Shown piece by piece: positions 41,204 to 50,502 of a DNA stretch of 64,000 nucleotides. Below the pieces are notes generated by a model. The model ran no database searches, was not told where the DNA came from, and worked only from the letters and a program-made list of their open reading frames with translations. Origin of the DNA: Bacteriovorax sp. GTDB lineage: Bacteria > Bdellovibrionota > Bacteriovoracia > Bacteriovoracales > Bacteriovoracaceae. Position numbers and translations under genes: made by a program. The stretch spans positions 1 through 64,000 of the forward strand of contig JACMPM010000053.1 of NCBI GenBank assembly GCA_014377485.1, in the 5' to 3' direction. How positions within the stretch are numbered: the stretch's first letter is position 1; each line of letters opens with the position of its first letter.

Positions 41204-42133
41204 ATGCTGAATGATAATTTTTATTACTCGTTTTCGAGTGATGCTCAAAATGAAATTTATGATTATATAAAATCATTACATGTTTATAATAGAATCGAAG
41301 ATGCAAAAATTCTAGATTCTGAAGATTGTCCGACTTTTAAATATGAAATGGAAGAAGTTCGAAATGAACTTGAAAATGGAAAACGTATTGTTATTGTAAA
41401 ACCATTTATTGACCTACAAAACAAATATACAATTTTAGAACAAAGAACTATTCACTGGTTAATGGGAAATATTTTGGGCGAAACTCTTGTTCAAAACGAA
41501 GCCGGCGATAGAGCGATCTTAGTGTACGATCGCGATAGAACGAATTCTATGACCAAAGGTGCTCGCTATCATCAAACTCGCGAAGGCGGAACAATCCATA
41601 CTGATAACGTAAATGTTCCATTTAAATGGGAATACCTTTTACTCGCTTGCATTGCTCCAGCCATGGCAGGAGGAGAAAATATTTTAGTTAATGCATTAAA
41701 CGTTCTTAAAATATTAAAACAAAAACATCCTGACGTTCTGGCAATCCTTGAAAAGAATTTCTTTTGGGAACAGCGTGGAGTGGCCGAAGCAACTTATGAA
41801 GCTCCAATCATTACTTACAATCAAAAAGGCGAACCAGAATTCCGTCATCTTCGTCCTTATATGGAATCGGCCCATAATAAATTAGATCGTCCTTTAACAG
41901 ACGAGCAAATGTATTCGCTAGATACATTGGATGCCATTTTGGAGCATTCGGACAATCAGTACCGTCACTCATTTGAAGCCGGTGAAATACTTCTTACGTA
42001 CGATGCTCAAGTTCTTCACGGGCGCACTTGTTTTTCAGACGATATGAATGCAGTCGTCATTCACGATTGGATAAAAGACCATAACAAGCCATTGAAGAGA
42101 ACGATGGATCGTATTTGGGCAAAGAAACGATAA
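41204..42133 (+). CDS. TauD/TfdA-family Fe(II)/2-oxoglutarate dioxygenase (candidate phosphonate C1-hydroxylase)
   Basis: The 309-residue protein carries the facial triad region TIHTDN (His132, Asp134) and distal His272 in VLHGRTCF, as expected for TauD-type oxygenases. The usual arginines 10-15 residues after the distal His, one of which binds 2-oxoglutarate, are not seen; AVVIHDW occupies that place. The cofactor use may therefore be unusual, or the arginine may lie elsewhere. It is the first gene of a coupled operon that makes aminoethylphosphonate and a lipid-transferase. Related oxygenases (TmpA in the TauD-like group, PhnY in another) hydroxylate C1 of aminoethylphosphonates. Inference: it hydroxylates 2-aminoethylphosphonate or the finished lipid head group to the 1-hydroxy form. 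Confidence 0.72.
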   Translation: MLNDNFYYSFSSDAQNEIYDYIKSLHVYNRIEDAKILDSEDCPTFKYEMEEVRNELENGKRIVIVKPFIDLQNKYTILEQRTIHWLMGNILGETLVQNEAGDRAILVYDRDRTNSMTKGARYHQTREGGTIHTDNVNVPFKWEYLLLACIAPAMAGGENILVNALNVLKILKQKHPDVLAILEKNFFWEQRGVAEATYEAPIITYNQKGEPEFRHLRPYMESAHNKLDRPLTDEQMYSLDTLDAILEHSDNQYRHSFEAGEILLTYDAQVLHGRTCFSDDMNAVVIHDWIKDHNKPLKRTMDRIWAKKR

Positions 42134-42152: not shown

Positions 42153-42896
42153 ATGTCACAACTAACAGCACTTATTTTGGCCGCAGGGTATGGCTCACGC
42201 ATTTCGGATGTGACTGATGACCCAAAAAGTTTATTGCAAATAAATGGAAAATCATTAATGGACTGGCATTTCGAAGCTTGGAAAGAAGTAGGAATTCGAA
42301 ACGTCGTTGTGGTTACAGGTTATAAGCGCGATGTACTTGAAGCTTATCTTGAAAAATACAAAATGGATTTTGATATTCATTATGCTGTCAACGAAGATTA
42401 CCGAGTTAAAGGAAACACTTATTCATTTCTTTACGGTCTAGAAAAAACGCAAGGTGATTTTTTATTGTTCGATGCAGATCTTATCTACGATACTAAAATC
42501 TTAAAAAGTTTCATCGAGGATATTACGCCTAATCAAATCCTGGTCGGAGAGAGTTCAATCGATGATATCGAATGCGCAAAAACTATGATCGACGAAGATG
42601 GATTTGTCCGCATGACGATTGATAAGCGTGCAGTCTCTGAAGAAGAACGCAAGCGTTTTACGTTTGCTGGAGAAGCTATTGGAATATTGAAATTCTCAGA
42701 AGCATTTAGAGACGATATGTACAATGCCTGTAAAAGTTTTCTTGCGGACGAAAAAAATATTTCAAAAAACTGGGAACATGTCATGAATGAGTTTTTACTC
42801 AATCACGATATGAGTATACACCAAGCATTCAGTGACCGCTGGGTAGAGATCGATAATAAAGAAGACTTGGAAAAAGCTAAAAGATTATTTAAATGA
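42153..42896 (+). CDS. Nucleotidyltransferase, LicC/PntC-like (candidate AEP cytidylyltransferase)
   Basis: The 247-residue protein has LTALILAAGYGSR, the DPKSLLQINGKSLMDW motif and the metal-binding FDADLIYD, ending with VEIDNKEDLEKAKRLF, as in LicC-like phosphocholine cytidylyltransferases. PntC-type enzymes in phosphonate clusters belong here and convert CTP plus 2-aminoethylphosphonate to CMP-AEP. It sits between the oxygenase and the CDP-alcohol transferase, and the next gene starts inside its stop (ATGA). Its motifs are better preserved than those of the second nucleotidyltransferase domain fused to PEP mutase, so this is the likelier active cytidylyltransferase. Confidence 0.78.
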   Translation: MSQLTALILAAGYGSRISDVTDDPKSLLQINGKSLMDWHFEAWKEVGIRNVVVVTGYKRDVLEAYLEKYKMDFDIHYAVNEDYRVKGNTYSFLYGLEKTQGDFLLFDADLIYDTKILKSFIEDITPNQILVGESSIDDIECAKTMIDEDGFVRMTIDKRAVSEEERKRFTFAGEAIGILKFSEAFRDDMYNACKSFLADEKNISKNWEHVMNEFLLNHDMSIHQAFSDRWVEIDNKEDLEKAKRLFK

Positions 42897-43762
42897 ATTG
42901 GCTTAAAGAATATAAATTATCTCTTAAAAACCTGCACGCCGAAGAGCCTCTTGACGTCTATTTTTATAGACCTCTGGCTTTTATAGTTGTTAAGACATTT
43001 TACTCACTACCTATTACTCCAAATCAATATTCTCTTTTAGCTCTTCTTTCAGGAATAGCTTCTGGATATAATTTGTTAAAGGGAACCTCTCAGAGTTTTA
43101 AATGGGGTGCCTTTTACTTCCTGCTTTTTGCTATTCTGGATTGTTGTGACGGAATGGTTGCAAGACTCAAGAAAAATGGAACTGAATTTGGCCGTCTGAT
43201 TGATGGTGTGGTTGATTATACAGTTAACGTCATTGTTTATGTAACCCTTGCTCTTGGATTAAAAAAACAATACTCCCCGGATTTATTTCAGCCGTGGTTG
43301 TTAGTTATAGTGGCCGGAGTTTCAAAAGCAATCCATTCGATTTCTTATGATCATTACCTTACTGAGTATTTGTCATATGAAAAAGGAGACGGAGGTTTTG
43401 TTGTTAGAGAAATTGAAGACCTAAGAGGTAGACTGGATGAGAGCGAAAAATCAAATGCATCTTATATTCGCCGTTTGGCATTAAAGCTATACTTAGGATA
43501 TTCAAGTATTCAGGCCGGTAATCAAGAACGCATCTTAGTTTTTAATCCACGTCTGTATTGTGAAAAAAATCTTCGCGCTCTGAAAATGTGGTCTTTTGTT
43601 GGTCCTGCTGTTCATATTTCAGTTTTAATCATCTCTTGTATCTTGAATGAGCCTTATCTTCTTTTCTTTTATTCAGTTGTCTTTGGTAGTTTATGGTTGA
43701 TTATGATGTTCATTTATCAATTCAAAATTAATCAGGAATTGTCTGAGGAAAAAGCAGCATGA
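42893..43762 (+). CDS. CDP-alcohol phosphatidyltransferase family enzyme
   Basis: The 289-residue membrane protein contains the complete catalytic motif D83-x2-D86-G87-x2-A90-R91-x8-G100-x3-D104-x3-D108 in the segment DCCDGMVARLKKNGTEFG. Several hydrophobic segments surround it. The family transfers a phospho-alcohol from a CDP-linked donor to another alcohol. In this operon the likely donor is CMP-aminoethylphosphonate and the acceptor a lipid hydroxyl (ceramide or diacylglycerol), giving a phosphonolipid. Inference from context; substrates are not readable from sequence. It is coupled at both ends by ATGA overlaps. Confidence 0.85.
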   Translation: MNWLKEYKLSLKNLHAEEPLDVYFYRPLAFIVVKTFYSLPITPNQYSLLALLSGIASGYNLLKGTSQSFKWGAFYFLLFAILDCCDGMVARLKKNGTEFGRLIDGVVDYTVNVIVYVTLALGLKKQYSPDLFQPWLLVIVAGVSKAIHSISYDHYLTEYLSYEKGDGGFVVREIEDLRGRLDESEKSNASYIRRLALKLYLGYSSIQAGNQERILVFNPRLYCEKNLRALKMWSFVGPAVHISVLIISCILNEPYLLFFYSVVFGSLWLIMMFIYQFKINQELSEEKAA

Positions 43763-44397
43763 TTATCGCCTTGATCATTGGTTTAATTACAGGTTTTCTT
43801 ATCTGCATTCCGGTCGGACCGATCAATGTGTGGGTTGTGAATACTCTGATCAAACACGATTTTAAATCAGCTTTTGCCATTGCTCTTGGTGGATCCCTGA
43901 TGGATTTCATTTATTTCATGGTGATCTTAAGTGGGCTTTCACTATTTCATTTTTCACCAAAGACAATTCTGATCTTGAAGATCGTGGGAGTCGTCTTCTT
44001 GCTGGCTTTTGGACTTAAAGAATTGTTTTTTCAAAAGCAAAATTTTGTCTTGGATAAGGATATAAAAAAGAAAGAGCCAACTGTGTTTGCATTTTTTCTT
44101 TTAGGTGTAGCAATCTATTCTTCAAATCCAACTCTTGTTGCAACAATGTCTGGCTTGGCAGCAGTGATCAAATCATGGAATCTTTTTCCAAACGTTTATC
44201 GTAGTTATTTTGCTCTTTCGTTTGGACTAGCTGTGGGATCTGCTTCTTGGTTTTACATACTATTAAGAATTGTAAAAAAATATCAAAATAAAATCCCAGA
44301 AAGATTTTTTATTAATTTCAGTCGTGCCTGTGGGGCCCTAATTGTCCTCTTTAGTCTCTATATGGCATTTAATGTTTATAAGGAAAACTTTGTATGA
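43759..44397 (+). CDS. LysE/RhtB-family transporter-like membrane protein
   Basis: The 212-residue protein has about six hydrophobic segments. Its N-terminal [23 protein letters not shown], with the PVGPxN motif, is diagnostic of LysE family exporters. Members export amino acids or small amines. Coupled on both sides (ATGA at 43759 and 44394), it is an integral part of the phosphonate operon. Possible roles are export of a phosphonate or aminophosphonate or movement of a lipid intermediate; none is proven. Confidence 0.78.
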
Positions 44398-46031
44398 AAA
44401 AACCTATTATCAAAAAAACAACTCAACTAAGAAATATGTTGAATTCAAATGAACTAGAATTTTTAATGGAAGCGCATAATGGAATGTCTGCGAAGATTGC
44501 CGAAGAAGCAGGATTTAAAGGTATTTGGGGTTCTGGACTTTCTATTTCTGCGGCTCTGGGAGTTCGTGATAATAACGAAGCTTCATGGACTCAAGTTTTA
44601 GAAGTTGTAGAATTTATGAGTGATGCGACGACTATTCCTATCCTTCTTGATGGTGACACTGGTTACGGTAACTTTAATAATATGAGAAGACTCGTCACAA
44701 AACTTGAGCAACGCGGAGTTGCCGGTGTTTGTATCGAAGATAAAATTTTTCCTAAGACAAATTCATTTCTTCGTACTGAAGCTCAGCCTTTAGCTGACAT
44801 GGATGAATTTTGTGGAAAAATTAAAGCAGGTCAGGACACTAAACTTGATAGTGATTTTAATATTATCGCAAGAGTTGAAGCTCTGATTGCAGGATGGGGA
44901 ATGGGAGAGGCGCTAAAAAGAGCTGATGCTTATCGCCTGGCCGGAGCAAATGGAATACTAATGCACTCAAAAATTTCTAAGCCAGATGAAATTCTAGCTT
45001 TCATGAAAGAATGGGGAGAAAGAAGTAAATTGTGTCCGATCGTTATCGTTCCAACAAAATATTACGCAACTCCGACAAATGCTTTTAGAGAAGCTAATAT
45101 CTCTGTTTGTATCTGGGCCAATCACCAAATGAGAATGGCGGTAACGGCAATGCAAAGTGTAACGAAGACTATCTTTGAAGAGCAATCTTTAATGAATGTG
45201 GAAGATAAGATCGTTTCTGTTGCAGAACTCTTTCGTCTTCAAAATGATAAAGAACTTGAAGCTGCAGAAAAATTGTATTTATCAGTTGCCGACGCTGATA
45301 AACCAAGAGCTATTTTCTTAGCTGCTTCTAGAGGAGCAGAACTTAAGGAATTAACTGAAGACAAACCAAAAGTTCTAATCGATATAAATGGGAAGCCTTT
45401 AATTGAGCAATCAATTAATACTTTCTACGAACATAATATCAAAGATATTTCAATCGTTCGTGGATATAAAAAAGAGGCATTCAAACTTCAAAATATTAAA
45501 TATTTTGATAATGATAATTTCGAAACGACAAGTGAGCTTTCTTCGCTTTTCTTAGCGAAAAAAGAAATAGCTGATCATGTCGTTATTTCTTACGGTGATA
45601 TTCTTTTTAGAAAATATATTCTCTCTCGCTTATTAGAAGAAAAAGGTGACATTACAATTGTAGTTGATGCTGCTATTAGCGATCGAGCTCCAAGTTACAC
45701 AGGAGACTTTGTTCTTTGCTCGCGTCCTCATAGTAATATTTACAGTGAAGCTCCAGCGGAACTTAAAGGAATTGCTTTCGGTAAAGCCGGAGAAAACAAA
45801 GAAGTTCAAGGTGAGTGGATTGGTCTAATGAAAACAAATAAAGTTGGTTCAGAAGTGCTTTCTAAAACGTTGGAAGAACTTTCTCAATCTCCCGACTTTA
45901 GTAAATTAAAACTTCCAGATCTTATGAATAAACTTCTTGAGAAAAAAGTAAAAATTAATGTCATGTATATTGATGGTCATTGGCTAGATGTAGATAATTA
46001 TGCTGACGTTTCACGCGGTCAGAAATTTTAA
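44394..46031 (+). CDS. pepM: PEP mutase fused to a nucleotidyltransferase domain
   Basis: The 545-residue protein has an N-terminal PEP mutase (about 1-290) with [10 protein letters not shown] and the signature [10 protein letters not shown] (residues 115-124), which separates mutase from isocitrate lyase-like relatives. PEP mutase forms the C-P bond by isomerising phosphoenolpyruvate to phosphonopyruvate. From about residue 305 a nucleotidyltransferase-like domain follows ([40 protein letters not shown]). Its first loop reads AASRG rather than the AAGxGxR used by LicC/PntC-type enzymes, so its activity is uncertain; such fusions are known in phosphonate clusters. It is linked to ppd by a ribosome site AAGAGG. 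Confidence 0.93.
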
Positions 46032-46046
46032 TTTAAAGAGGATCTT

Positions 46047-47204
46047 ATGATATCAGCAGATAAGTTTTTAACACCGGCCAGAGAGCTTGGGTTTAATTTT
46101 TTTACAGGAACACCTTGTTCTTACCTAAAACCATTTATTAACTATGTTATTGACACAGACGGTTTCGATTTCATAGATAGTGTAAACGAAGGTGAAGCGG
46201 TAGCAATCGCAGCGGGAGCAACAGTCGCTGGTAAGCGCGCTGTCGTTATGTTTCAAAACTCAGGTTTGGGAAATGCGGTTAATCCGCTTACTTCATTAAC
46301 TTATACTTTTAATATACCGGTAATGGTGATTACGACTTTAAGAGGAGAGCCAGGTGGAGCTCACGATGAACCACAGCATGAGTTGATGGGACAAATCACA
46401 ACTGAGCTTCTTGAGACAATGAGAATGAAATGGGCTTTTTTTCCAAATACTGAAGCAGATGTTATGCCAGCTTTAAAATTGGCCGATGATTATATGAAAT
46501 CAACAAATCAGCCATTTGTTTTTGTGATGAGAAAAGATGATATCTCTGATTACAAACTCCAGAAGAAACCAGCAGTTTCGCAAAAAGTACTTTCAGTAAA
46601 TCATTCCGATCTATTCGAACTTGGCTATAAAGAACGCACAACCAGGACTCCTGTTCTTGAAGTGATTCAAAAAGAATTGGGACAAGACGTGGCAGTGATA
46701 GCGACTACTGGAAAAACTGGACGTGAGCTATACGAAGTCGGCGATCTTAAAAATCAATTTTACATGGTTGGTTCAATGGGTTGTGCATTAGCTTTTGGCC
46801 TGGGCATTGCTCTTGTGAAACCAAAGTTAAAAGTTGTGGTTATTGATGGTGATGGTGCACTTTTAATGAGAACCGGAACTATGGCAACGGTTGGTGCTTA
46901 CCGTCCGAATAATTTAGTTCATATATTAATTGATAACGAAGCTCATGATTCAACTGGTGGTCAAGGGACAGTTACGGGCGGAATTTCATTTGGTGCCGTA
47001 GCCCTGGGATTTGGTTATGAACAAGTTTACTCAACTGATAAACTAGAGGCTTTTAAAAACATACTTGGTGTAGTTAAAAATTCAAAATCATCTACTTTTA
47101 TACATTTGAAAACTCAAAAGGGTTCACCAGAAAAACTCGGAAGACCTAAAGTTACTCCTGCTGAAGTAAGTCTTCGTTTTGCGGAATTTGTTCAGTCTAA
47201 ATAA
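46047..47204 (+). CDS. ppd: Phosphonopyruvate decarboxylase
   Basis: This 385-residue thiamine-diphosphate enzyme shows the N-terminal FTGTPCSYLKPF, Glu in VNEGEAVAIAAG, the LRGEPGGAHDEPQHE segment and the ThDP-binding DGDGALLMRTGTMATVG. It decarboxylates phosphonopyruvate to phosphonoacetaldehyde, the step that pulls the unfavourable PEP mutase reaction forward. It follows PEP mutase within 15 nt and is followed by a strong terminator. Confidence 0.95.
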   Translation: MISADKFLTPARELGFNFFTGTPCSYLKPFINYVIDTDGFDFIDSVNEGEAVAIAAGATVAGKRAVVMFQNSGLGNAVNPLTSLTYTFNIPVMVITTLRGEPGGAHDEPQHELMGQITTELLETMRMKWAFFPNTEADVMPALKLADDYMKSTNQPFVFVMRKDDISDYKLQKKPAVSQKVLSVNHSDLFELGYKERTTRTPVLEVIQKELGQDVAVIATTGKTGRELYEVGDLKNQFYMVGSMGCALAFGLGIALVKPKLKVVVIDGDGALLMRTGTMATVGAYRPNNLVHILIDNEAHDSTGGQGTVTGGISFGAVALGFGYEQVYSTDKLEAFKNILGVVKNSKSSTFIHLKTQKGSPEKLGRPKVTPAEVSLRFAEFVQSK

Positions 47205-47219
47205 TGATTAATATTTTGC

Positions 47220-47247
47220 TCGGCAGGAGTAATTCTGCCGATTTTTC
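47220..47247 (+). terminator. Rho-independent terminator after ppd
   Basis: The stem TCGGCAG / CTGCCGA (7 bp) has an 8-nt loop and is followed by TTTTTCT, 16 nt after the ppd stop. It ends the first part of the phosphonate operon. Confidence 0.85.
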
Positions 47248-47386: not shown

Positions 47387-49369
47387 ATGTTTATTCAGTT
47401 AGTACTATTGTCGAGTCTGTTATGTGCCACCAGCTCATTTGGGGCCTCAAGTGAAATACCTTTGAAGAGAGAATTTCCGCTCAATGATAAAATAAATCCA
47501 TGTGAAAATCTTTATGAACATGCCTGTTCAAAGACCATTGAAAGTTTTCAATTGCGTGCTGATCGCCGTAGGCATTCATTTGCTTTTAGTGATTCGGCAG
47601 AACGCATTCTTGAATTTAAAAAGAATTACATAAAAGACCTAACTTCTAAAGAAGCTGATTCGCCGGTCTCTGGTCAAATTAAAAACTTTTATCTTTCTTG
47701 TATGAATAAAGATGCAAGAGCTAAAGAAGAGACAAATGAAATTCAAAAATTGATGGATGATCAGAAAAAAATAACAGATAAAAAAGAATGGTTTAAAACT
47801 CAAGCCGGAAAAATTCATAGCGGTAAGAGTGGTTTTATTGGTTACTCTACGAATGATAATTTTGATGATGCAAGAAAATCAGATTTAATGTTGGGAGTTG
47901 GCTATTCCTTACTACCTGAAAAAAGTTATGCGAAAAATGAAGTATTGATTAAGGCCCTTGCTGTCCTTGTTACTGATTTTTTCAAAACGATTGGCGCAGA
48001 CCATCCGGAAGAGAGGGCTAAAACAGTTCTTAAGTATGAGATAGATCAACAAGACAATCGCTTCTTTCCTGTTGAGGCGCGAATTGCTTACTCGCTAAGA
48101 AGATTCGTTACTAAAAAAGAATTGTTAAAAAAATATCCCGATCTTCAATTAAACGTTTTCCTGAGTCAAATACCGGAAGCGACTTTTATTAGGAATATGA
48201 ATCCTAAAACAATACCTTTCCTTAATAAAATAGCTAAAACTTATTCACTTGATGAACTTAAAACATTAGAAATGTTTTATGAACTTAGATCAAAGTTAGA
48301 TCAGGGTTATCCTACATTTTATGATGAAGCTTTTGTTTTCGCTAATAAATTTCTTGGCGGTAAGAATAAAAGATCTGAGTTAGATGAAGAATGTACAACT
48401 TTAACCATGCATCGTTTTGGGGCAGAGTTTGACTACCTTGTATTGCCAAAGATGTTTCCAAACTTCTCATCAGAAAAGGTAGCGGATCTCGTTGGAAAAA
48501 TTAAAAAGAGTATCTTAGCATCTTTATCTAAGAACACCTGGCTATCTCCTACTGCTAAAAAAGAAGCGGAAAGAAAAATTTCAACAGCTTTTATGCGCTT
48601 AGTTTCACCTCAAAATTTTACTGACTGGAAATTTTTACCTACAGCTGCTTATGGAAAAGATACATATCTGGCCAATATTGAAAAACGCAATGGGATATCT
48701 GAGACCAGAGAATTTAAGTTTTTTAGAGAGTTGAAAGATATTCGTTCATGGGAGGGAGTTGAGCCATTAGAAGTAAATGCATTCTATCAACCTTCTTATA
48801 ATCAATTCACAATGCTTCAAGGGATTTTACAGTACCCATTTTATGATCAAAAAAGCTCTGAGATTGAAAACCTTGCAGGAGTTGGGATGGTCGTAGGGCA
48901 TGAACTTGGTCACGCCATTGATGATCAAGGATCAAAATACGATGCAGATGGAAAATTAAGAGACTGGATGACAGCCAAGGATCTTGTAAAGTTTAAAGAG
49001 TTAACAAAATCTTTAATTGAGCAATACTCAAAAGCAGGAATGAATGGGGAATATACACTTGGCGAAAATATTGGTGACCTCGTGGGATTGAATGCTGCTT
49101 ACGATGCTGCATTTTCAACCGACAATACTGCATCTGCTTCAGACTTAAAGTCACAGAAGAAAAATTTCTTTTTAAACTATGCTCGTTCATGGTGTGAGGT
49201 TCAACTCCCAGGAGTTAGAGATTTACGATTAAAATCTGATCCGCATTCACTAGGAGTTGCGAGAGTAAACGAGGTCGTAAAACACTTTGCTAGCTTTAAG
49301 GAAGCATTCGATTGCAAGGATAGTGATCCTATGATCTTTTCGGCCGAGCAAAGAGTGCATATCTGGTAA
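47387..49369 (+). CDS. M13-family (neprilysin-like) zinc metallopeptidase
   Basis: The 660-residue secreted protein has a signal peptide (cleavage near SFGA-SS). It has the typical M13 start PCENLYEHAC, substrate-binding NAFYQ, zinc site HELGH (H505-H509) and ENIGD with the third zinc ligand Glu560. Length and the C-terminal region (RSWCEVQLPG) match PepO-like enzymes. M13 peptidases cut peptides up to a few kDa outside the cytoplasm. It lies between ppd and the AEP transaminase with its own terminator upstream, so it is probably a separate unit inserted in the phosphonate locus. The product is plausible for digesting prey or environmental peptides. Confidence 0.93.
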   Translation: MFIQLVLLSSLLCATSSFGASSEIPLKREFPLNDKINPCENLYEHACSKTIESFQLRADRRRHSFAFSDSAERILEFKKNYIKDLTSKEADSPVSGQIKNFYLSCMNKDARAKEETNEIQKLMDDQKKITDKKEWFKTQAGKIHSGKSGFIGYSTNDNFDDARKSDLMLGVGYSLLPEKSYAKNEVLIKALAVLVTDFFKTIGADHPEERAKTVLKYEIDQQDNRFFPVEARIAYSLRRFVTKKELLKKYPDLQLNVFLSQIPEATFIRNMNPKTIPFLNKIAKTYSLDELKTLEMFYELRSKLDQGYPTFYDEAFVFANKFLGGKNKRSELDEECTTLTMHRFGAEFDYLVLPKMFPNFSSEKVADLVGKIKKSILASLSKNTWLSPTAKKEAERKISTAFMRLVSPQNFTDWKFLPTAAYGKDTYLANIEKRNGISETREFKFFRELKDIRSWEGVEPLEVNAFYQPSYNQFTMLQGILQYPFYDQKSSEIENLAGVGMVVGHELGHAIDDQGSKYDADGKLRDWMTAKDLVKFKELTKSLIEQYSKAGMNGEYTLGENIGDLVGLNAAYDAAFSTDNTASASDLKSQKKNFFLNYARSWCEVQLPGVRDLRLKSDPHSLGVARVNEVVKHFASFKEAFDCKDSDPMIFSAEQRVHIW

Positions 49370-49389: not shown

Positions 49390-50502
49390 ATGAAACAAGT
49401 TAAGAGAAATATTCTTCTTAATCCTGGACCTGCAACTACAACTGATACTGTAAAAAACGCAATGGTTGTTCCCGATATTTGTCCTCGCGAATTAGAGTTT
49501 GGTGAACTGACACTTTCAGTACGTAATGATCTAATTCGAGCTGCTTATGGTGAAAAAAATCACACTTGTGTAATGCTTACTTCTTCTGGGACAGGTGGAG
49601 TTGAAGCTTGTTTAACTTCAGTTGTTCCTCATAATCAAAAAGTTTTGATTTTAAACAATGGCGCTTACGGTGAGAGAATGCAAAAAATCTGTGACGCTTA
49701 TAGCGTTGAGCACGTAGATTATAACCAGGAGTGGGGACGCCCGCTGGACCTGAATGCAGTCGAAGAACTTCTCAAGCAACATGCAGGTGTTATTTCCCAT
49801 TTAGCCTTTATTCACCACGAAACAACTGTGGGTATCTTAAATCCACTCAGTGAAATATCCACACTTTCTCAAAAATATGAAGTTGAGACGATTGTCGATG
49901 CTATGTCTTCGTTCGCCGGGATGATGATCAATGTAGAAAAAGACAATATTCATTACCTCGTTTCTTCATCAAACAAATGTATTCAAGGGATGGCGGGAAT
50001 TAGTTTTGTAATAGCTAATACTAAGTCGCTCCTAAAAACCAAAGAAATTAAAGCTCGTAATTTTTATTTTAATTTACTTGAAAATCATCTTTATCTGGAA
50101 AAAAACAAGCAATTCCTTTTTACTCCTCCAGTACAAACACTCTATGCTTTACGCCAAGCTGTGACCGAATACTTTGAAGAAGGCGCTGAGAATAGATTTG
50201 CTCGCTATGCTTCATTATATGAAATTATGAAGAAAAAAGTTGTCGAGCTAGGTTTTGAATTTTTAATAGAAGAAAAATATCATGCTAAATTATTGACGGC
50301 CATAATGGATCCAAAAAATCCAGCATACTCATTCAATGAAATGCACGATTATTTATTTGATAGAGGATTCACTATTTATCCGGGGAAAGTGGGAAATAAA
50401 AATACTTTTAGACTTTCTAATATTGGGGCGATATATCCCAAAGACATGGAAGATTTTTTAATAGTATTTGAAGAATATCTTCGTATTAAAAAAATAATCT
50501 AA
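49390..50502 (+). CDS. phnW: 2-aminoethylphosphonate:pyruvate transaminase
   Basis: This 370-residue class V aminotransferase starts NILLNPGPATTTDTVK and continues VVPDICPRELEFGEL, the signature start of PhnW. The PLP lysine is Lys196 in SSSNKCIQG. PhnW usually degrades 2-aminoethylphosphonate, but the reaction is reversible. In a locus with PEP mutase and decarboxylase it should run in the biosynthetic direction, aminating phosphonoacetaldehyde from alanine. It follows the M13 gene by 20 nt. YkgJ-like gene follows after 1 nt. Confidence 0.95.
   Translation: MKQVKRNILLNPGPATTTDTVKNAMVVPDICPRELEFGELTLSVRNDLIRAAYGEKNHTCVMLTSSGTGGVEACLTSVVPHNQKVLILNNGAYGERMQKICDAYSVEHVDYNQEWGRPLDLNAVEELLKQHAGVISHLAFIHHETTVGILNPLSEISTLSQKYEVETIVDAMSSFAGMMINVEKDNIHYLVSSSNKCIQGMAGISFVIANTKSLLKTKEIKARNFYFNLLENHLYLEKNKQFLFTPPVQTLYALRQAVTEYFEEGAENRFARYASLYEIMKKKVVELGFEFLIEEKYHAKLLTAIMDPKNPAYSFNEMHDYLFDRGFTIYPGKVGNKNTFRLSNIGAIYPKDMEDFLIVFEEYLRIKKII

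Follow-up and report, generated by a model that had tools for sequence, protein, structure and literature searches.

An Fe(II)/2-oxoglutarate (2OG) oxygenase encoded at the head of a phosphonate operon in Bacteriovorax sp. is, we consider it likely, a biosynthetic C1-hydroxylase of the 2-aminoethylphosphonate (AEP) head group, acting in membrane phosphonolipid synthesis. By analogy with a related species, it is probably the missing enzyme for the 1-hydroxyl group known since 2001 on the AEP head group of that relative's sphingolipids. The gene lies within a 64,000-nucleotide stretch of contig JACMPM010000053.1 (assembly GCA_014377485.1), referred to here as the window.

Bdellovibrio stolpii, now Bacteriovorax stolpii, possesses a ceramide lipid with a 1-hydroxy-2-aminoethylphosphonate (HAEP) head group (Watanabe 2001, as cited in PMC8154272 and PMC12366243), and the same sphingophosphonolipid appears in PMC6148460. 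A literature search of limited reach found neither a reported stereochemistry for this HAEP nor a hydroxylase named for it. Genome-based predictions that HAEP occurs in other bacteria are credited in PMC8154272 to Yu et al. 2013 and Bartlett et al. 2017, and it is possible that oxygenases of this kind received earlier mention in that prediction literature. The relatives of the window sequence are Bacteriovorax sp. by submitter label, and the suggested tie between the oxygenase and the known B. stolpii lipid rests on relatives so labelled.

The phosphonate operon

The operon and its surroundings comprise the following features, all on the plus strand:

41204-42133, plus strand: TauD/FrbJ-like Fe(II)/2OG oxygenase, candidate AEP head-group C1-hydroxylase (Pfam TauD, FrbJ profile match, AlphaFold2 and Foldseek)
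42153-42896, plus strand: PntC-like CTP:phosphonate cytidylyltransferase (NTP_transf_3, 9.6e-14; signature LAAGYGSR)
42893-43762, plus strand: CDP-alcohol phosphotransferase, with a lipid alcohol as the presumed acceptor of the phosphonate (PF01066, 1.8e-11)
43759-44397, plus strand: LysE-type transporter (PF01810, 1.5e-17)
44394-46031, plus strand: PEP mutase (PepM) fused to a second nucleotidyltransferase domain (TIGR02320, 391 bits, over cut-off)
46047-47204, plus strand: phosphonopyruvate decarboxylase (Ppd; TIGR03297, 414.6 bits, over cut-off)
47220-47241, plus strand: terminator-like hairpin directly after Ppd (9 pairs, then a T run), the total number of such hairpins being not above chance
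49390-50502, plus strand: 2-aminoethylphosphonate aminotransferase (PhnW/AepZ; TIGR03301, 412.5 bits, over cut-off)

The six genes from the oxygenase to Ppd are separated by gaps of 15-19 bases or overlap by 4, and the oxygenase is the first of them, bearing out the first-pass annotation, which had placed it at the head of a phosphonate operon. A promoter scan yielded nothing above chance. A gene encoding an M13-family peptidase (47387-49369) separates ppd from phnW; it is also found in several relatives but is missing at two loci (L030 and L039).

The PepM protein contains the EDKxxxxxNS motif, and synthesis of AEP by PepM, Ppd and PhnW is supported by the family-level matches. Activation of AEP with CMP and its transfer to a lipid alcohol would follow from the family membership of the next two enzymes. 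The best relative of the cytidylyltransferase in the PDB is 6pd1 (8.8e-14), which we take to be T. denticola PntC, and the CDP-alcohol phosphotransferase has an intact catalytic motif (DxxDGxxARx8GxxxDxxxD) at residue 83. The operon thus encodes two nucleotidyltransferases, the free PntC-like protein with the canonical LAAGYGSR signature and the PepM-fused C-terminal domain, nearest to LicC (1jyk), with the altered sequence LAASRGAE; both are also present at a locus without the oxygenase (L097).

The PntC phosphonyl tailoring clusters described in PMC6697681 resemble the operon in combining PepM, Ppd, an AEP transaminase and a cytidylyltransferase, but a text search of that source for an oxygenase, hydroxylation or a CDP-alcohol transferase found none, whereas the window has both genes.

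The oxygenase and its nearest relatives

The open reading frame at 41204-42133 encodes a 309 amino acid TauD-fold Fe/2OG oxygenase. The protein matches the TauD/TfdA family (PF02668) at 9.8e-20, with 72 bits against a Pfam gathering score of 27, and carries the HxD...H iron ligands of that family:

41597-41605, plus strand: HxD of the metal triad (H132-T-D134), invariant in 28 homologues
42017-42019, plus strand: distal metal ligand H272, invariant in 28 homologues

The first-pass annotation had the coordinates and all three ligand positions right. An AlphaFold2 model built from a 28-sequence alignment (pLDDT 88.8, pTM 0.87) was matched by Foldseek to 2OG hydroxylases, headed by the tautomycetin hydroxylase TtnM (7n7v; 2.3e-18, TM 0.71-0.74) and FrbJ (1.0e-15, TM 0.68/0.77), with BBOX, GlaH and TmpA following.

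By sequence, the best solved relative is FrbJ (PDB 5eqn), with 2.5e-14 for the single sequence and 2.4e-20 for a 28-row profile; 7n7v comes next, and butyrobetaine dioxygenase and TmpA are more remote. FrbJ, a biosynthetic phosphonate hydroxylase of the FR-900098 pathway, shares QTxE, HxD and GGE segments with the oxygenase. Its substrate is FR-900098. The oxygenase is therefore nearest to FrbJ by sequence and has it among its nearest relatives by fold, and it is encoded together with the C-P bond-forming enzymes PepM and Ppd. Against a role as AEP C1-hydroxylase, identity to FrbJ is under 20% (17-18%) and the FrbJ phosphonate is a different one; FrbJ also serves antibiotic rather than lipid synthesis. 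TtnM, at 18% identity, acts on a natural product that is not a phosphonate.

The first-pass annotation had compared the oxygenase with TmpA (PDB 6npb). This is a TauD-superfamily enzyme that hydroxylates an AEP derivative, but the comparison is weakly supported: TmpA is far more remote than FrbJ and TtnM, its substrate is trimethyl-AEP and its role catabolic, and the oxygenase scores 44.5 bits with the TmpA equivalog model (NCBIfam NF049936), short of the 400-bit cut-off. E. coli TauD has in common with the oxygenase its Pfam family, the HxD...H triad and an R-x3-R spacing; there are no taurine genes near the oxygenase.

Distribution of the oxygenase

A scan of the genome collection identified 28 oxygenase loci. 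In 21 of these, from Bdellovibrionota including Bacteriovorax, a Methylococcaceae MAG and three Pelagibacteraceae records, a cytidylyltransferase gene directly follows that of the oxygenase, and where the contig reaches far enough CDP-alcohol transferase and PepM genes mostly come next. The remaining loci comprise one contig-end fragment and loci without phosphonate neighbours, which mostly belong to a separate paralogous clade (99/98 support) that includes the own genome's second copy (L002, 42%). A paralogue with 42% identity is located at L003:9945-10889 (contig C27 of the same genome); its neighbours are partly conserved and include no phosphonate genes. The presence of this paralogous clade, at about 42% identity, away from phosphonate genes means that the fold by itself does not mark an enzyme as phosphonate-specific.

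Across the phylum, 15 of 291 genomes encode the oxygenase and 29 encode PepM, with all 15 among the 29. These counts include related genomes, which are not independent; by genus, all seven oxygenase-containing genera fall within the 21 PepM-containing genera of 162 (hypergeometric 2.3e-7).

One locus (L097, genome G074) has genes for the cytidylyltransferase, CDP-alcohol transferase, LysE, PepM fusion, Ppd and PhnW in the order seen in the window but lacks the oxygenase; the rest of that genome, which is about 90% complete, yielded no homologue of it either. Because this operon occurs without it, the oxygenase seems to be an optional extra that decorates the product of an AEP-lipid pathway. 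The possibility that the free cytidylyltransferase is specific for a hydroxylated phosphonate is made less likely by its presence in L097.

Individual loci vary in other ways. At L029:8893-10322 the LysE gene comes directly after that of the cytidylyltransferase and a CDP-alcohol transferase seems to be missing there, a point against the pathway proposed below. Three loci from SAR11-type Pelagibacteraceae (L046, L049 and L050) encode, in series, the oxygenase, a cytidylyltransferase, a TylF-type methyltransferase and a CDP-alcohol transferase, and in L046 there is an upstream PepM fused to a CTP_transf_like domain. At L051:7710-9605 the oxygenase homologue is fused to a SAM-dependent methyltransferase domain, an arrangement that might couple methylation with hydroxylation.

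It is conceivable that the oxygenase acts on an aminophosphonate but performs a different reaction, such as desaturation, rearrangement, N-demethylation or C2 oxidation. Related 2OG enzymes do so, DfmD for example rearranging and desaturating trimethyl-AEP (PMC9296572), and methyltransferase genes lie beside or are fused to some homologues (L046, L049, L051). The operon in the window, however, has no methyltransferase, and the lipid of the related species contains plain 1-hydroxy-AEP, for which hydroxylation suffices; we regard a different chemistry as unlikely.

Sphingolipid context

The own genome encodes one AOS-family enzyme, whose nearest relative is a serine palmitoyltransferase (SPT; 3a2b, 2.1e-108). 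It is located in a putative sphingolipid locus:

L055:4819-10177 (own genome, contig C88): fatty acid hydroxylase, PAP2, epimerase-type, GNAT-type and serine palmitoyltransferase genes

Here the SPT homologue is flanked by the GNAT-type and epimerase-type genes, with the fatty acid hydroxylase and PAP2 genes nearby. This is the gene composition of bacterial ceramide loci, and we infer that the GNAT and epimerase genes function in ceramide synthesis. SPT homologues occur in 13 of the 14 genomes of the genus but do not track the operon, because they are also widespread beyond it, including in relatives that lack the operon. Ceramide is the presumed acceptor for the phosphonate, a point that the wide spread of SPT weakens.

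The operon would produce a lipid and sphingolipids bear several hydroxyls, so that the oxygenase could be imagined to hydroxylate the acyl chain or sphingoid base of the final lipid instead of the phosphonate. Yet a gene of the FA_hydroxylase type is already present near that of SPT, the oxygenase gene adjoins that of the cytidylyltransferase, in Pelagibacteraceae as well, and the closest relative of the oxygenase works on a phosphonate. A lipid-chain target is accordingly improbable, and hydroxylation of the head group is preferred.

The 2-oxoglutarate site

The first-pass annotation had described an atypical 2OG site, in which the arginine pair expected shortly after the distal histidine was replaced by the sequence AVVIHDW. 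Two features of the C-terminal region bear on this:

42041-42094, plus strand: variable insertion, residues 280-297, including AVVIHDW (column identity; helix 286-291 in the model)
42098-42118, plus strand: R299-x3-R303-x-W305, last-strand arginine pair presumed to bind 2OG/substrate (invariant in 28/28; strand E300-307)

AVVIHDW corresponds to residues 283-289 and so lies inside a variable stretch: in the 28-homologue alignment, mean column identity is 0.84 for residues 268-279, falls to 0.45 for 280-297 and returns to 0.81 for 298-305. Ten residues past AVVIHDW is the conserved sequence KRTMDRIW, in which R299, R303 and W305 are invariant in all 28 aligned homologues. The distance from the distal histidine to R299 is 27 residues in 24 rows of the alignment and 25-29 in the remainder. 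The 28-sequence AlphaFold2 model places the arginine pair at the final strand (E300-307) and forms part of the variable segment into a short helix (286-291); in a shallower model built from 15 sequences, residues 279-289 are of low confidence.

In TauD the pair is R266/R270, at H+11 and H+15, with the same i, i+4 spacing as R299/R303. A variable loop has therefore shifted the arginine pair of the oxygenase by some 16 residues; the pair is not replaced. R299 and R303 appear to provide the conserved last-strand arginine by which the TauD family binds 2OG, and since they are conserved downstream and lie on the final strand, the 2OG site is counted as ordinary, with an insertion, as judged from alignment and model. 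The first-pass annotation had proposed structure prediction and alignment with TauD as checks. The former speaks against its claim of an atypical site; the latter, with E. coli TauD, gave only a weak local hhalign match of 102 columns, with the C-terminus outside it. Alignments with FrbJ stop short of the FrbJ C-terminal arginines.

That the site is truly atypical, with another cosubstrate or a new mode of 2OG binding, might be argued from the distal His-Arg spacing of 27 compared with 11 in TauD, but the invariance of R299 and R303 in 28/28 homologues and their placement by the model on the last strand make this very improbable, and the idea was dropped. What survives of the original observation is the reading frame, the triad and the leading position in the operon; of its interpretation, the functional guess stands as a candidate and the atypical site does not.

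Proposed function

In the pathway that we favour, PepM, Ppd and PhnW would convert PEP to AEP, the PntC-like cytidylyltransferase would convert AEP to CMP-AEP and the CDP-alcohol phosphotransferase would pass the phosphonate on to a lipid alcohol, with ceramide the most likely acceptor. The soluble Fe(II)/2OG oxygenase would add the 1-hydroxyl that turns AEP into HAEP, working on free AEP, on CMP-AEP or on the completed lipid, with iron bound by H132, D134 and H272 and with R299, together with R303, presumably holding 2OG and/or the phosphonate in the manner of R266/R270 of TauD. On chemical grounds C1 is the likely position, because an unstable hemiaminal would result from hydroxylation at C2. 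The oxygenase-free operon points to AEP itself as a substrate that both the cytidylyltransferase and the transferase accept, and therefore hydroxylation may precede activation, follow activation or take place on the lipid.

Candidate C1 hydroxylation of the AEP head group, serving biosynthesis and not degradation, had been proposed in the first-pass annotation, and operon, phyletic and literature evidence now support it well. A catabolic AEP hydroxylase feeding phosphonate breakdown would follow the pattern of PhnY* and TmpA, both 2OG oxygenases with C1 of AEP-type substrates as their target, and the oxygenase matches TmpA weakly. This reading is most improbable and was rejected, because neither phosphonatase nor the C-P lyase PhnJ was found in the genome; the oxygenase also shares its operon with PepM and Ppd, which form C-P bonds, and its 44.5 bits with the TmpA model compare with a cut-off of 400.

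More speculatively, the conserved module of oxygenase, PntC-like cytidylyltransferase and CDP-alcohol phosphotransferase might make HAEP membrane lipids in several lineages, SAR11-type marine bacteria among them, with the oxygenase acting on CMP-activated or lipid-bound phosphonate and not on free AEP; lipid phosphonate head groups would then have, for the first time, dedicated 2OG oxygenases.

Significance

The oxygenase, which belongs to a known fold family and has a normal 2OG site, is probably a new biosynthetic hydroxylase of AEP; it heads a phosphonate-lipid operon in a Bacteriovorax-type predatory bacterium. The 1-hydroxy-AEP head group of B. stolpii has been known since 2001, and the oxygenase gene offers a candidate for the origin of that lipid structure. 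Enzymes that degrade HAEP (PbfA and PbfF) have already been described, whilst its natural producers are hardly known; if the proposed function is correct, the oxygenase would serve as a genomic marker for a biological source of HAEP.
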